60,606 nt of DNA from an uncultured Candidatus Actinomarina sp. (GTDB lineage: Bacteria > Actinomycetota > Acidimicrobiia > Actinomarinales > Actinomarinaceae). The notes beneath the pieces are model-generated. The model did not search any database. It saw only the letters and a list, made by a program, of their open reading frames with translations, and was not told the origin of the DNA. Below are positions 37,215 to 42,659 of this stretch, one piece after another (position 1 is the stretch's first letter; each line of letters starts with the position of its first letter). The stretch is taken from positions 1-60,606 of the forward strand of contig CACJIM010000007.1 in NCBI GenBank assembly GCA_902593475.1. Direction: 5' to 3'. Both the position numbers and the translations under genes were made by a program.

Positions 37215-38369
37215 ATGGATATCAATTCTCTCAAGTCTCAATTTTCAAAATATAAAAAAGACTTGTTAGATCTTAATAAATACATGTATGAAAATCCTGA
37301 ATTAGGATATCAAGAGATTAAGTCTGTAAATAAAATTACTAAACTTATCAAAAAGCATACAGCTGATGCAAAATTTAAAAAGTTTACTGATATTCCTACT
37401 GCTTTTACTGCTTCAATCAATAATAAGCCCAGAAAAAAAAATATTGCTATATGTATAGAATATGATGCATTACCGAATGTTGGACATGCTTGTGGACATA
37501 ACCTAATATCATCCATAGGATTAGGTGCATTTTTTATCCTTTCGAATTATATAAACGACCTATATTACGAAATAAAGTTAGTAGGTTGTCCTGCTGAAGA
37601 AATCATTCCATTGACCTATGAAAATGGGGGTGGTGGTGGAAAAATAAAACTTTTAGACCAAGGTGCCTTTGATAACACTGCATATTCTGTAATGATCCAT
37701 CCGGCTACAAGAAATGAAGTTGATCCTTTAATGATTGCAGTAAAACAAATTGATATAGAATATTTTGGTAAAGCTGCACATGCGTCTGGTTCAGCATATG
37801 TTGGAAAAAATGCATTGGATGCTCAAATCCTTGCATACAACAACATCAGTGCTTTAAGGCAGCAGCTACAATCTGTAGAAAAAGTTCATGGAATAATTAC
37901 TCATGGTGGTGAGTCACCCAATATTATTCCAGATTACACAAGATCAAGTTGGATGATTCGTGCTCAAAAAACAAAAGACTTAAATAGATTAGAAAAGAAA
38001 ATTATAAATTGTTTCAAAGGAGCTGCAGAGTCTACAGGTTGTAAGTTAAACATTGTTGAAGGTAATGGGACTTATGAAAATTTAGTTACAGACAAAAAAT
38101 TAAAGTCAATATTTATGGAAAATTCAAAAAAACTTTCTTTAGATATGAAAACCAATGAAAGTTATGATCAAAGTAAAAACGGATCTACAGATTTTGGAAA
38201 TATTTCAAAACAAGTTCCTTCATTACACGCATTTCTTCAAATTGTTGATGATGATGGAAAGATTGTAAACCACCAACCTGAATTTGCTCATGCAACAGTT
38301 ACTAAAAGAGCTACTGATATGATTGAAACTGGTAGTGTTCTTTTAGCTTCTACTATTTTAGATTTGTAA
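37215..38369 (+). CDS. M20-family amidohydrolase/peptidase
   Basis: A 384-residue zinc hydrolase of the M20D type (AbgA/AbgB and PM20D2-like). Metal-site motifs are HACGHN (about 92-97), CPAEE and the MIHPA region. The dimerisation domain contains FGKAAHASGSAYVGKNALDAQI, and the C-terminal metal-site region GSTDFGNISKQVPSLHAFLQI. The substrate could be an aminoacyl amide or a small dipeptide. I choose the ATG at 37215 just after the upstream stop; an ATG at 37200 overlapping the previous gene by 14 bases is equally readable. The 3' end overlaps the convergent adenosine deaminase gene by 17 bases. Confidence 0.85.
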   Translation: MDINSLKSQFSKYKKDLLDLNKYMYENPELGYQEIKSVNKITKLIKKHTADAKFKKFTDIPTAFTASINNKPRKKNIAICIEYDALPNVGHACGHNLISSIGLGAFFILSNYINDLYYEIKLVGCPAEEIIPLTYENGGGGGKIKLLDQGAFDNTAYSVMIHPATRNEVDPLMIAVKQIDIEYFGKAAHASGSAYVGKNALDAQILAYNNISALRQQLQSVEKVHGIITHGGESPNIIPDYTRSSWMIRAQKTKDLNRLEKKIINCFKGAAESTGCKLNIVEGNGTYENLVTDKKLKSIFMENSKKLSLDMKTNESYDQSKNGSTDFGNISKQVPSLHAFLQIVDDDGKIVNHQPEFAHATVTKRATDMIETGSVLLASTILDL

Positions 38370-39333
38370 ATCTTGCATCAATAGCATTCTTTACAAGTTG
38401 ACTGTGTAAATTTCCATCTAACTCTAAATAATTTTCAGCTTTTTTAAATTCCTCAGAAATCTTTGTTTTTGCCATTAATCGATTATCTGAATTTAGAGTT
38501 ACCTTAAACCCAGATTTTAACAGCTTTATGGCTGGGTGGTTTTCAATAGTTACTGAACTTGCACCTGATTTTACATTTGAAGAAATACATATTTCTAATG
38601 GAATCTGCTTATCCAAAACATATTGAGCTATTCTGGAATTTGGAATATAAGTGTCGTTTTTGTATTGACAACCATCAATAATTTGCCAACCATGCCCTAT
38701 TCTTTGTGCTTGACAATTAAAAACAGCGTCTTCTATATAGGACAAGTCAGCTGCTTCTCCTGCGTGTATAGTTAAACCTACTTCAGATTCTGAAATTAAA
38801 TTACAAGCTTCTTTGTGAAGTGAGGGAGGAAAATTATACTCTGGACCTGCAAGGTCAAATCCAATAACATTGTTATTAAAATTTTTTATAGCCAATTCTG
38901 CAACTTCAGTTGAGTTTTTATGTTGTCTCATTGCACATAAGATTGTATAAAATTCTCCACCAAAGTCTTTTTGTCCATCTTTAATACCTGTTGACACTGC
39001 ATCAACAACTTCCTGTGAAGATAGTTTTCCTTGTAAATGTTGTAGAGGAGCATATCTCAACTCACCATACACAACCCCATCTTCTACTAAGTCCTCAACT
39101 GCTTCATATGCAACTCTTCGGATTGAATCAGTGTCTTGCATAACAGAAATTGTCATCTCAAATTTTTTGAATACTTGTTTTTTATCAGTTGAAATATTTT
39201 CAAAAAACCAATTTTCTAATTCTTGTTCGTTTGAAGAAGGAACAGTCAAGTTTTTAGTTTTAGCAATATCTATAATGGTTTTTGCTCTTAGCCCTCCATC
39301 AAGATGTTCGTGTAAAGCTGAAAATTCTTTTAT
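38353..39333 (-). CDS. add: Adenosine deaminase without a normal start codon
   Basis: Catalytic residues are readable: the zinc-binding HxH in LHEHLDGGL, AGE (general acid), RIGHGW and SDNR, so the enzyme would turn adenosine into inosine. The HxH region is encoded only if translation begins upstream of 39249, the first ordinary start (TTG). Between an in-frame stop and HxH there is no ATG, GTG or TTG. The best candidate is ATA at 39333, seven bases after GGAG and overlapping the stop of the upstream amidohydrolase (ATAA). The product would be 326 residues with His8 and His10. Alternatively, one extra A in AAAA after the ATG at 39346 shifts the frame. The upstream amidohydrolase and nucleoside transporter support a purine-salvage role. 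Confidence 0.85.
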   Translation of the reverse strand: MKEFSALHEHLDGGLRAKTIIDIAKTKNLTVPSSNEQELENWFFENISTDKKQVFKKFEMTISVMQDTDSIRRVAYEAVEDLVEDGVVYGELRYAPLQHLQGKLSSQEVVDAVSTGIKDGQKDFGGEFYTILCAMRQHKNSTEVAELAIKNFNNNVIGFDLAGPEYNFPPSLHKEACNLISESEVGLTIHAGEAADLSYIEDAVFNCQAQRIGHGWQIIDGCQYKNDTYIPNSRIAQYVLDKQIPLEICISSNVKSGASSVTIENHPAIKLLKSGFKVTLNSDNRLMAKTKISEEFKKAENYLELDGNLHSQLVKNAIDARFTNLK

Positions 39334-40649
39334 GAGAAATCTCCATTATCTATTTTCTTATCAAATCCTGTTTTAGTAAATAATTTATTAAATGCCTCTA
39401 ATCCTTCCTCAAAAACTTTTTGTTCATCGATTAGTTGAAATTTTGAATCCTTTAATATGCATTCTCCGTCTATAAATACATCCTTTATTTCATTAGATGA
39501 TGCGCACATTACAATATTATTTACTACATCATGCAGTGGTTGCATTCTAGGAGAATTAATTGAAATTGTTATAAAATCTGCTTTTTGATTTTTTGATAAA
39601 TTTCCTGAAAAGTTACCACCAGAGATCCTTTTTATGTTTTCCTCAGAAGCTTTTCTAAATATTTCTTTTGGTTTAATGAAATCTTTTTTGGCTACGGAAT
39701 TATTTAAGACTAATGCAGTCCTCATTTCTTCTAACATATCATAATCATCGTTACCCCCAGAACAATCTGTACCTATTCCCCAGTCAACATTCAATTCTGA
39801 CAAAAAATTAGTATTCATTGGCTTTCCAGCTATTCCGTGAGTTGTTGGGCAAAATATTGGAAATGCTTTTGACTCTGCAAGTAACTCCAAATCTCCATCC
39901 TCTACAACATTGCAATGAGCAGCTATTACTTTTTCATTCAATATTCCGAGGTTAAATGCGTGTTTAATTGGGGAAGTATCATAGTTAGATTTAATATAGT
40001 CCATCTCTTTTTGAGTTTGAGCTAGGTGTATATGTGTTAATAAATTATTTTCTAGCGCATAATTGCTTAATTCTTTAAGTTCTTTTGGGCTTACTGTTGA
40101 AGTTTCATGTGGTGCAACAATTGGATGAACTGTACTATGATTTTTCCAATTATTATTAAAGGACTTTGCTAGTTTAATTTGTTCTTTACCAGTCCATGGA
40201 CCATACTCAGTCATAATTGTGTGCCCAATAAACCCTCTTATTCCAATATATTCACACGCTTTTGCAACTGAATCAGCAAAAAAATAATGATCATTAATTG
40301 ATGTTGTGCCAGATGATATAGCATCCATCATGCCTAATAAAGAAAGCTTGTAAACTAAATCTTCATCTAGAGCTGGTTCAATCCCCCACATCACATCATA
40401 CAGTGCACTTGCGTTTCCATAACCAAGTCCTTTTACAGAATTTAAAGCAACATGTGAGTGTGCATTTGTAAAACCTGGTGAGATTATTACATCTCCTAAT
40501 TCGTTAATTTTACTTAAGTCTTTAGTTATTGTTTCTATCGGTACTATATTCTCTATGTATTTTCCATTAACAATTAAAACAGAATTTTTATGAACAGTTT
40601 TGTAATCTTCAACTATGTATCGAGCTGAGAAATATTCTTTACTTATCAA
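39330..40649 (-). CDS. TRZ/ATZ-type amidohydrolase (purine-like deaminase)
   Basis: A 439-residue metal-dependent amidohydrolase. It has the N-terminal metal motif FTNAHSHVALNSVKG (about 59-73), TSINDHYFF, VAPHETSTVSP and THIHLAQT (further histidines), a metal-site Asp in GTDCSGGNDDYDM, and a C-terminal composite beta domain. Relatives deaminate S-adenosylhomocysteine, methylthioadenosine, guanine, cytosine or triazines. The surrounding nucleoside transporter, nucleoside hydrolase and adenosine deaminase genes favour a nucleobase or nucleoside substrate, which is inference. Its stop overlaps the proposed ATA start of adenosine deaminase. Confidence 0.85.
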   Translation of the reverse strand: MISKEYFSARYIVEDYKTVHKNSVLIVNGKYIENIVPIETITKDLSKINELGDVIISPGFTNAHSHVALNSVKGLGYGNASALYDVMWGIEPALDEDLVYKLSLLGMMDAISSGTTSINDHYFFADSVAKACEYIGIRGFIGHTIMTEYGPWTGKEQIKLAKSFNNNWKNHSTVHPIVAPHETSTVSPKELKELSNYALENNLLTHIHLAQTQKEMDYIKSNYDTSPIKHAFNLGILNEKVIAAHCNVVEDGDLELLAESKAFPIFCPTTHGIAGKPMNTNFLSELNVDWGIGTDCSGGNDDYDMLEEMRTALVLNNSVAKKDFIKPKEIFRKASEENIKRISGGNFSGNLSKNQKADFITISINSPRMQPLHDVVNNIVMCASSNEIKDVFIDGECILKDSKFQLIDEQKVFEEGLEAFNKLFTKTGFDKKIDNGDFS

Positions 40650-41576
40650 TTATTGTTCAGGAATAGGGACAGGTCTTACCCTTATTCTTTGTCTTATGCC
40701 AATAAGTATTAACACAACAACTGTTAGAGCATAAGGGACCATTAAGATTAGTCTTGAGTCTAATTCATATACACCTTGAAGTCTTATACCGATTGCGTCT
40801 CCTAAACCAAAAAATAAACTAGCACCAAATGTACCAAGTGGAGTGTTGTTACCAAATGAAGAAGCAACAAGTCCTATATAGCCTTTTCCAGCTGACATTC
40901 CCTCTGTAAAAAGAGTCATGTTTTCTAGTGAAAGAAAAGTACCACCTATACCTGCTAAAACTCCTGAAAAAATAACAGTTAACCATTTCATTCTTAAAGT
41001 ATTAATTCCAGCATCTTCTGCAGCCTCAGGATTTTCACCAGTAGCTCTAATAGCTGTTCCCAATCTTGTCTTGTAATAAACCAAATATAAAACAATAGCT
41101 AGAAAAAAAACAAGGTAAATTGAAGGTGTGTATCCTGAAAGAATTTTTTCAAAACGAGTATCTACAAGAAATTCGAAATTTATTGGATCGATGCCTTGAA
41201 TGGAAGGGTCAGAAAAAAAACCTCTACGTTTGAATAATGTTTCTAATAAATATCTTGTACCAGCAATAGAAAAAATGTTGATCGCTAAACCTACTAAAAC
41301 TTCATCTGCACCTAAATTGAAACTTAAAACACCAAATAAAATTGCCGTAAGCACTCCAGCAGATACTCCCCAAATAAAACCAGTTAGGGCACTTCCTGAA
41401 TAGTAGCTTGCTGCGATTCCAACAAATGCTGCGTTGAGCATTTTGCCCTCTAAACCAATATTCAAAACACCAGAAGCGGAGCACATTGCTGCACCAAACC
41501 CAATTAAGGCAATTGGAGTTGCACTACGAATTAAGCTCCTAAAAAGAGAGATATCAAATATTTCAAGCCATTCCAT
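40650..41576 (-). CDS. nupQ: Nucleoside ABC transporter permease (NupQ-like)
   Basis: A 308-residue permease with about eight helices, of the BMP-type transporter family. Diagnostic stretches are SGVLNIGLEGKMLNAAFVG (about 34-52) and the coupling region LGTAIRATGENPEAAEDAGIN (about 172-192). It pairs with the longer permease gene, whose stop is adjacent. Its stop is one base from the start of the amidohydrolase gene, so transport and catabolic genes share an operon. Confidence 0.9.
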   Translation of the reverse strand: MEWLEIFDISLFRSLIRSATPIALIGFGAAMCSASGVLNIGLEGKMLNAAFVGIAASYYSGSALTGFIWGVSAGVLTAILFGVLSFNLGADEVLVGLAINIFSIAGTRYLLETLFKRRGFFSDPSIQGIDPINFEFLVDTRFEKILSGYTPSIYLVFFLAIVLYLVYYKTRLGTAIRATGENPEAAEDAGINTLRMKWLTVIFSGVLAGIGGTFLSLENMTLFTEGMSAGKGYIGLVASSFGNNTPLGTFGASLFFGLGDAIGIRLQGVYELDSRLILMVPYALTVVVLILIGIRQRIRVRPVPIPEQ

Positions 41577-42659
41577 TTATTTAATCTTTCTAGTAAAAAA
41601 AGCGTCTAGTTTTCTAACGAATTTAAATCTTTCCAGTGAAGATACAAGCTTTTGTGCACTAACAAAAAATATTAAAATTGAGAGTAGAATTACAACTATT
41701 TCTCGAGAAACTTCAGTTTTATAATCTACAAATAAACCTCCGTTTCTTAGAGCACTCCAAAATAAAGAAGCAATTAAACCGCCGATTGGTTCTAATTTAC
41801 CCACAATTGCAATAAGAATTCCATCAAACCCTTGGTTAAAAAGAAGTTCTTGGTAAAAATATCTAGCATTTCCAAGAATTTCGATACCACCAGCAAGCCC
41901 CCCAAGTCCTCCAGAAATTAACATTCCTGTTATTGCAGATCTATCTGAAGGTATTCCAAGGTATGAACTATATCTAGATGGATAAAACCCGACAAGACCA
42001 TCGCCGCCAGATCTTAATTCGTAACCAAATGTTGTTTTTTTAAGAATAAAATATGTTAAAAATGCAATAATTACCGCTATGAAAAAACCAGAGTTAAATT
42101 GTGAATTTGGAAAATATTGTTTTAATTCAGCAGTTTCTAATATTCTTGGAGTCGCAGGTGCTATAGGGTCTGCTCTAAATGGTCCATTAGCCATATAGGA
42201 AACAAACAATACAGCAACGAAATTAAGAATAATTGTTGAAATTATCTCACTTACACCCGCATAAACTTTTAATAAAGCTGGTAGCAACATCCACAAACTT
42301 CCAGTAATAATGGCAATAGCTATACATAAAGATACATGGGGAATATGGCCCAAGGATGTAAATTTATATCCTGCCCATGCAGCATATAAACCCCCAATAT
42401 ACATTGATCCATTTATTCCAATATTAAACATACCAACTCTGAAAGAAACCACAGTTGCAATTGACGTTAGAATATATGGAGTCGCAATATTTAAAGTATT
42501 CAAAATATTTCTCTGTCCAACAACAGCGCCTTCAAAAAATAATTTCCCAATTTCTCTAGGAACAAAACCAGTAACAGTTAATAAAACCCAAGCAATACCA
42601 ATAGTTATTATTGTTCCTGCAAAAAGAATGAGTACATCTTTAAATGAAAATTTTTCCAT
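41577..42659 (-). CDS. nupP: Nucleoside ABC transporter permease (NupP-like)
   Basis: The second, 360-residue permease of the BMP-type system, with about ten helices. VSFRVGMFNIGINGSMYIGGLYAAW (about 71-95) and TFGYELRSGGDGLVGFYPSRYSSYLGI (coupling region, about 210-236) match the family. It lies between the ATPase gene (two-base gap) and the shorter permease gene with no gap. Confidence 0.9.
   Translation of the reverse strand: MEKFSFKDVLILFAGTIITIGIAWVLLTVTGFVPREIGKLFFEGAVVGQRNILNTLNIATPYILTSIATVVSFRVGMFNIGINGSMYIGGLYAAWAGYKFTSLGHIPHVSLCIAIAIITGSLWMLLPALLKVYAGVSEIISTIILNFVAVLFVSYMANGPFRADPIAPATPRILETAELKQYFPNSQFNSGFFIAVIIAFLTYFILKKTTFGYELRSGGDGLVGFYPSRYSSYLGIPSDRSAITGMLISGGLGGLAGGIEILGNARYFYQELLFNQGFDGILIAIVGKLEPIGGLIASLFWSALRNGGLFVDYKTEVSREIVVILLSILIFFVSAQKLVSSLERFKFVRKLDAFFTRKIK

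Follow-up and report, generated by a model that had tools for sequence, protein, structure and literature searches.

A probable AUA start codon within a stop-codon overlap in an adenosine deaminase gene of Candidatus Actinomarina

The deaminase locus and its start region

The window analyzed here is a 60,606-nucleotide stretch of DNA, contig 7 of an 837 kb assembly in 30 contigs from an uncultured Candidatus Actinomarina sp. The closest named relatives of this genome (G000 below) include Candidatus Actinomarina AH-321-N21, MED-G97 and AG-390-E09. Actinomarina are marine actinobacteria with AT-rich, streamlined genomes in which the median intergenic spacer is 2 bp (PMC7771536). The region of interest lies on the minus strand and contains the following features.

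40650-41576 and 41577-42659, minus strand: two ABC-transporter permease genes (from the open reading frame list), upstream and in the same direction
39330..40649, minus strand: upstream amidohydrolase (TRZ/ATZ, chlorohydrolase/deaminase-like; PF01979, 5.7e-36)
39344..39346, minus strand: out-of-frame ATG, the alternative start of the initial annotation, rejected here (no preceding Shine-Dalgarno sequence, not conserved in relatives)
39341..39344, minus strand: GGAG, Shine-Dalgarno-like, 7 nt ahead of ATA
39331..39333, minus strand: proposed start codon ATA; no other AUN codon occurs from the in-frame stop to HxH
39330..39332, minus strand: TAA that ends the upstream gene; two of its bases also belong to ATA, giving a 4-nt overlap, ATAA (39333-39330)
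38353..39333, minus strand: add-like adenosine deaminase gene, open over 326 codons from ATA, without internal stop
39304..39312, minus strand: HEH (HxH) zinc-ligand motif, upstream of all in-frame canonical starts
39247..39249, minus strand: TTG, the first in-frame canonical codon and the likely pick of an automatic annotator, with which HxH is lost
38755..38766, minus strand: HAGE active-site motif, kept in 14/14 orthologues
38482..38493, minus strand: NSDN (metal-binding Asp region), NSDN or NTDN across an eight-genome clade

The full deaminase frame matches the Pfam A_deaminase profile (PF00962) at 2.3e-73 over model positions 4-315 of 330, scores 226 bits against TIGR01430 (cut-off 216.55) and contains the motifs HEHLDG, HAGE, GHG and NSDN. 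By profile and motifs, we assign the gene to the adenosine deaminases (Add, A_deaminase). Its neighbors are less sharply defined: the NCBIfam N-ethylammeline chlorohydrolase and TRZ-ATZ models match the amidohydrolase below cut-off, as do the putative B6 ABC permease 1 and 2 models for the permease pair. The two permease genes, the amidohydrolase and the deaminase likely form an operon. At its 3' end the deaminase gene is overlapped by 17 bases (38353-38369) by a convergent, plus-strand M20-peptidase-like gene. The same small genome holds two more adenosine-deaminase-like paralogues (G000:C4:33568-34515, 43% identity; G000:C1:10356-11216, 38%), and most of the genus paralogues examined start with ATG or GTG.

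In the deaminase frame of the minus strand, the codons from the last in-frame stop to the zinc-ligand motif are TAA TGG AGA TTT CTC ATA AAA GAA TTT TCA GCT TTA CAC GAA CAT. The initial annotation had stated that HxH is encoded upstream of every in-frame ATG, GTG or TTG, and this codon reading bears it out: none of the three occurs between the stop and HEH, and the first, TTG at 39249, comes after HEH. A protein begun at this TTG aligns to the Pfam model from position 28 instead of 4 and therefore lacks the HxH strand. It was likewise correct that the ATA at 39333 is the only near-start, with GGAG 7 nt before it and overlapping the TAA of the previous gene. The gene thus has no usable in-frame AUG, GUG or UUG, and carries an AUA at Shine-Dalgarno (SD) distance. 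RNA folding around the start was not stronger than in shuffled sequences (local folding, z = 0.03).

One alternative is that the peculiarity is an assembly or base-calling error in a run of four A, and that the true start is the ATG at 39346, read with one A fewer (MEISHKEFSALHEHL). The run, which had been placed at 39328-39332, does exist, but it spans 39331-39328 because 39332 is a T. The sequence permits the shorter reading, and homopolymers are error-prone. Nevertheless, we consider such an error highly improbable. The ATG has no SD, the conserved SD would become coding, no relative starts at that position or in that frame, and the separately assembled genomes G013, G060 and G030 equally lack a usable canonical start.

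The start column in Actinomarina orthologues

Deaminase orthologues are present in 14 of 42 Actinomarina genomes, including the window. The column occupied by ATA in the window is ATG in two of them (G061, G021) and TTG in four (G024, G026, G065, G059), with the same SD spacing and an unshifted frame. Four of the 14 have ATA without any ATG, GTG or TTG in SD reach (the window, G013, G060 and G030; G030 has a TTG directly before HxH, ~25 nt from the SD). Three have ATA followed immediately by GTG (G004, G029, G003) and one has TTA followed by GTG (G009). The four nearest relatives of the window have this GTG one codon downstream, which the window itself lacks. In all, ATG, TTG or ATA stands at one column in nine further genomes. 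Most orthologues have GGAG or GGTG 7 nt from the column, and all 14 overlap the upstream stop, by 4 nt in 10 cases and by 1 nt in four.

Of the four explanations offered initially, these comparisons back the very rare start codon, which G013, G060 and G030 share and which is replaced by ATG or TTG elsewhere, and speak against a slip, a recent frameshift and a base-calling error. A plain in-frame ATG in relatives had been named as evidence against an unusual start. Such an ATG was found, but at the ATA column itself, where it is consistent with substitution of a codon rather than with a frameshift.

The conservation of the column has to be read with care. It is partly dictated by the last codon and stop of the upstream gene (TCA+TAA), so that its conservation alone is weak evidence. 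In general, an upstream TAA or TAG in a -1 overlap forces NTA, and ATA in this position is therefore often incidental: NTA with TAA or TAG occurs in 202 of 427 co-directional pairs of that frame, mostly as TAATG-type junctions with ATG right after. The unusual feature is the absence of any usable nearby ATG, GTG or TTG, not the ATA triplet itself. As judged from the sequences, the case rests on the missing alternative start, the SD, and the ATG or TTG at the same column in sister genomes.

In a maximum-likelihood tree, the four ATA genomes occupy two positions within one supported eight-genome clade, which makes a base-calling error or a single fresh mutation unlikely. Pairwise dN/dS for the deaminase is 0.095-0.12 at dS near 0.9 with motifs intact (0.095 for G013 and G060, both ATA), indicating strong purifying selection on the gene. 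The shared ATA arrangement and the low dN/dS imply that the gene is used and that the peculiarity of its start is inherited.

These values also bear on the possibility that the gene is decaying: that it has lost its start, that the deaminase is untranslated or yields only a truncated, inactive product from TTG 39249, and that paralogues cover its function. With two further adenosine-deaminase-like genes in the genome, on C4 and C1, such a loss would be tolerated. However, the frame stays open over 326 codons, the catalytic motifs are intact, pairwise dN/dS is about 0.1 at dS near 0.9, and a separate clade has the same arrangement, again with dN/dS about 0.1. We regard decay as very unlikely, and we rejected the pseudogene reading on the basis of dN/dS.

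A programmed frameshift, either -1 near the stop of the upstream gene or on the A4 run from ATG 39346, would produce a fusion or an extended deaminase. The deaminase is indeed read in the -1 frame of the upstream gene, and the two frames meet in the stop overlap. Against this, the junction has no conserved slippery heptamer, and the surroundings of the stop vary (TCATAA, TTATAG, TCTTAG, GCATGA, AATTGA) while the spacing of SD and start stays constant. Orthologues, moreover, have plain ATG, TTG or GTG starts. We judge a frameshift to be extremely unlikely. Both a sequencing error and a programmed slip at A4 were rejected, as neither the alternative ATG nor its frame is used in any relative. The out-of-frame ATG at 39346, proposed in the initial annotation, is real and could be read into the gene with one A fewer, but has neither the SD nor the conservation of a start.

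Putative AUH start codons in other Actinomarina genes

We scanned stop-to-stop frames of four genomes in divergent pairs for conserved N-termini lying ahead of every canonical codon, and examined the best cases across the genus. Divergent relatives were needed because non-coding DNA upstream of genes is also conserved between close genomes, so that the pairwise comparison with G004 alone was uninformative.

In all 30 loci examined (L065-L094), the gene for initiation factor IF3, infC (G000:C11:25528-26019), carries ATA at SD distance. In nine of them no canonical codon precedes it in frame; the other 21 are less decisive because an ATG, GTG or TTG occurs at or before the SD. A terminator-like hairpin with a T run behind it stands shortly before the infC ATA. 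In nuoN (G000:C13:14070-15566, minus strand; L194-L223), the start directly after GGAGG or GGGG is ATT in 29 of 30 loci and ATC in one, and 24 of the 30 lack an in-frame canonical codon upstream. For aroQ (L254-L283), a nine-genome clade has ATT six codons before NGPN, in a column that is ATG in other species. ATT occupies this column in four further aroQ loci, of which three also have a TTG close by in frame. A DMT/EamA-type transporter gene reads GGAG-7-ATA-AAA-TCT-GAA-TAT in G004 (C5:11695-12624, minus strand) and GGAG-6-ATG-AAA-CCT-GAA-TAT in G065 (C1:124193-125080, minus strand), the ATG falling in the column of the ATA.

Two more genes have conserved N-termini ahead of their canonical starts. 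A signal-peptidase-I-like lepB (G000:C3:44359-44955, minus strand) has ATT behind a weak SD, and a D-alanyl-D-alanine-carboxypeptidase-like gene (G000:C1:12581-13693, minus strand) has ATT, replaced by ATC in G065. Both probably use AUH starts (AUA, AUU or AUC).

The rate of AUH starts is ~5 of 410 tested genes (about 1%), a figure internal to G000. In a crude SD-anchored count, AUH codons were not enriched at SD distance across the genome, so AUH starts are confined to few genes and the data do not support a general change in start rules. The initiator fMet tRNA gene is ordinary in G004 and G065, with a CAU anticodon and GGG/CCC stem, and an altered initiator tRNA was rejected on this ground; the gene was not found in the examined parts of G000. 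When adjacent gene pairs were screened for the absence of a canonical start nearby, most of the genes recovered had an ATG 12-25 codons further on.

The scanned genomes also contain a stretch of a different kind. In the upstream part of G000:C1:89873-90880 (minus strand), 29 codons are near-identical in DNA to a region of G065:C1 near 275611, with 29/29 translated residues the same; the proteins behind it are only 56% identical. The stretch, which has no Rfam match at the gathering threshold, suggests a conserved RNA or DNA element.

Proposed initiation at AUA and its meaning

We propose, with a probability of roughly 85%, that translation of the deaminase begins at a genuine AUA codon, read by the normal fMet-tRNA with help from the SD and from translational coupling. 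The GGAG seven bases upstream would position a 30S subunit, or a ribosome that has just terminated at the overlapping UAA of the amidohydrolase, and ordinary fMet-tRNA(CAU) would read AUA with a third-base mismatch. The protein would begin M-KEFSALHEHLDGG, giving the predicted N-terminal peptide (M)KEFSALHEHLDGGLR. By analogy with AUA starts whose activity has been measured, output would be weak (about a tenth of AUG), sensitive to IF3 and partly rescued by coupling. We infer the initiation at ATA, the reinitiation, the reduced output and the IF3 dependence alike, the last because AUU and AUA starts are known to behave in this way and because infC itself uses ATA. The arrangement could have arisen easily in an AT-rich genome, as replacing the G of ATGA by A yields ATAA, with TGA becoming TAA and ATG becoming ATA in one step.

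In Escherichia coli, infC and pcnB have AUU starts under IF3 control. As in these genes, the Actinomarina add start is a non-canonical AUN codon led by an SD, and similar discrimination by IF3 may be expected, although the codon is AUU there and AUA here.

The closest parallel in the codon itself is Staphylococcus aureus, in which infC, ccpN and citZ have an AUA start behind an SD (PMC13009471), infC being AUA in Actinomarina as well. These starts work at about 10-30% of AUG output, and the AUA of ccpN is conserved in relatives (PMC13009471), as is the start position of Actinomarina add. In contrast, the S. aureus starts have their own leader and an extended SD (PMC13009471), whereas Actinomarina add overlaps an upstream stop and has a short GGAG or GGTG. 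Initiation at AUA was measured in S. aureus (PMC13009471), while Actinomarina add is a metabolic gene of an uncultured actinobacterium, with an AUA start predicted from sequence.

Overlaps of 4 nt couple translation in bacteria (PMC6728339, PMC12548453). The deaminase junction resembles the NTGA (-4 nt) termination-reinitiation overlaps described there in its 4-nt stop/start overlap (ATAA, 39333-39330), its co-directional genes and its SD inside the upstream gene. It differs in that the Actinomarina junction is ATAA or ATAG, with an ATA start and a TAA or TAG stop (TAA in the window), in place of an NTG start and a TGA stop. Another actinobacterial gene with a non-canonical start is Streptomyces sigR, whose GTC start is reported to be repressed through IF3 (PMC5472188). 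It differs from Actinomarina add in having GTC and not ATA, in being a regulatory gene and in its experimentally demonstrated control. Among the papers searched, none connects Actinomarina with start codons beyond a single passing mention of the two.

A broader and more speculative idea, which we think is rather unlikely, is that Actinomarina keeps a small conserved set of AUA, AUU and AUC genes as an IF3-responsive start-codon regulon, in which ATAA and ATAG overlaps would represent a modified NTGA junction, allowing the upstream gene to retain TAA or TAG. The proposed members would be infC, nuoN, aroQ, add and the DMT transporter gene, probably with lepB and the D-alanyl-D-alanine-carboxypeptidase-like gene.

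AUA is a start codon that bacteria almost never use, and AUA starts as such are already known. What appears to be new is an AUA start within a stop-overlap junction, and a genus with putative AUH starts in several conserved genes. Gene finders restricted to ATG, GTG and TTG would set the start inside the deaminase and delete its zinc site; nuoN would lose about 22-88 residues (G004, G000), and other genes of this abundant marine lineage would suffer similar damage. The ATAA junction raises the question of whether reinitiating ribosomes tolerate start codons that are rejected in de novo initiation. With core genes of uncultured bacteria that have conserved AUH starts, the idea linking IF3 to non-canonical starts would become testable beyond model organisms.
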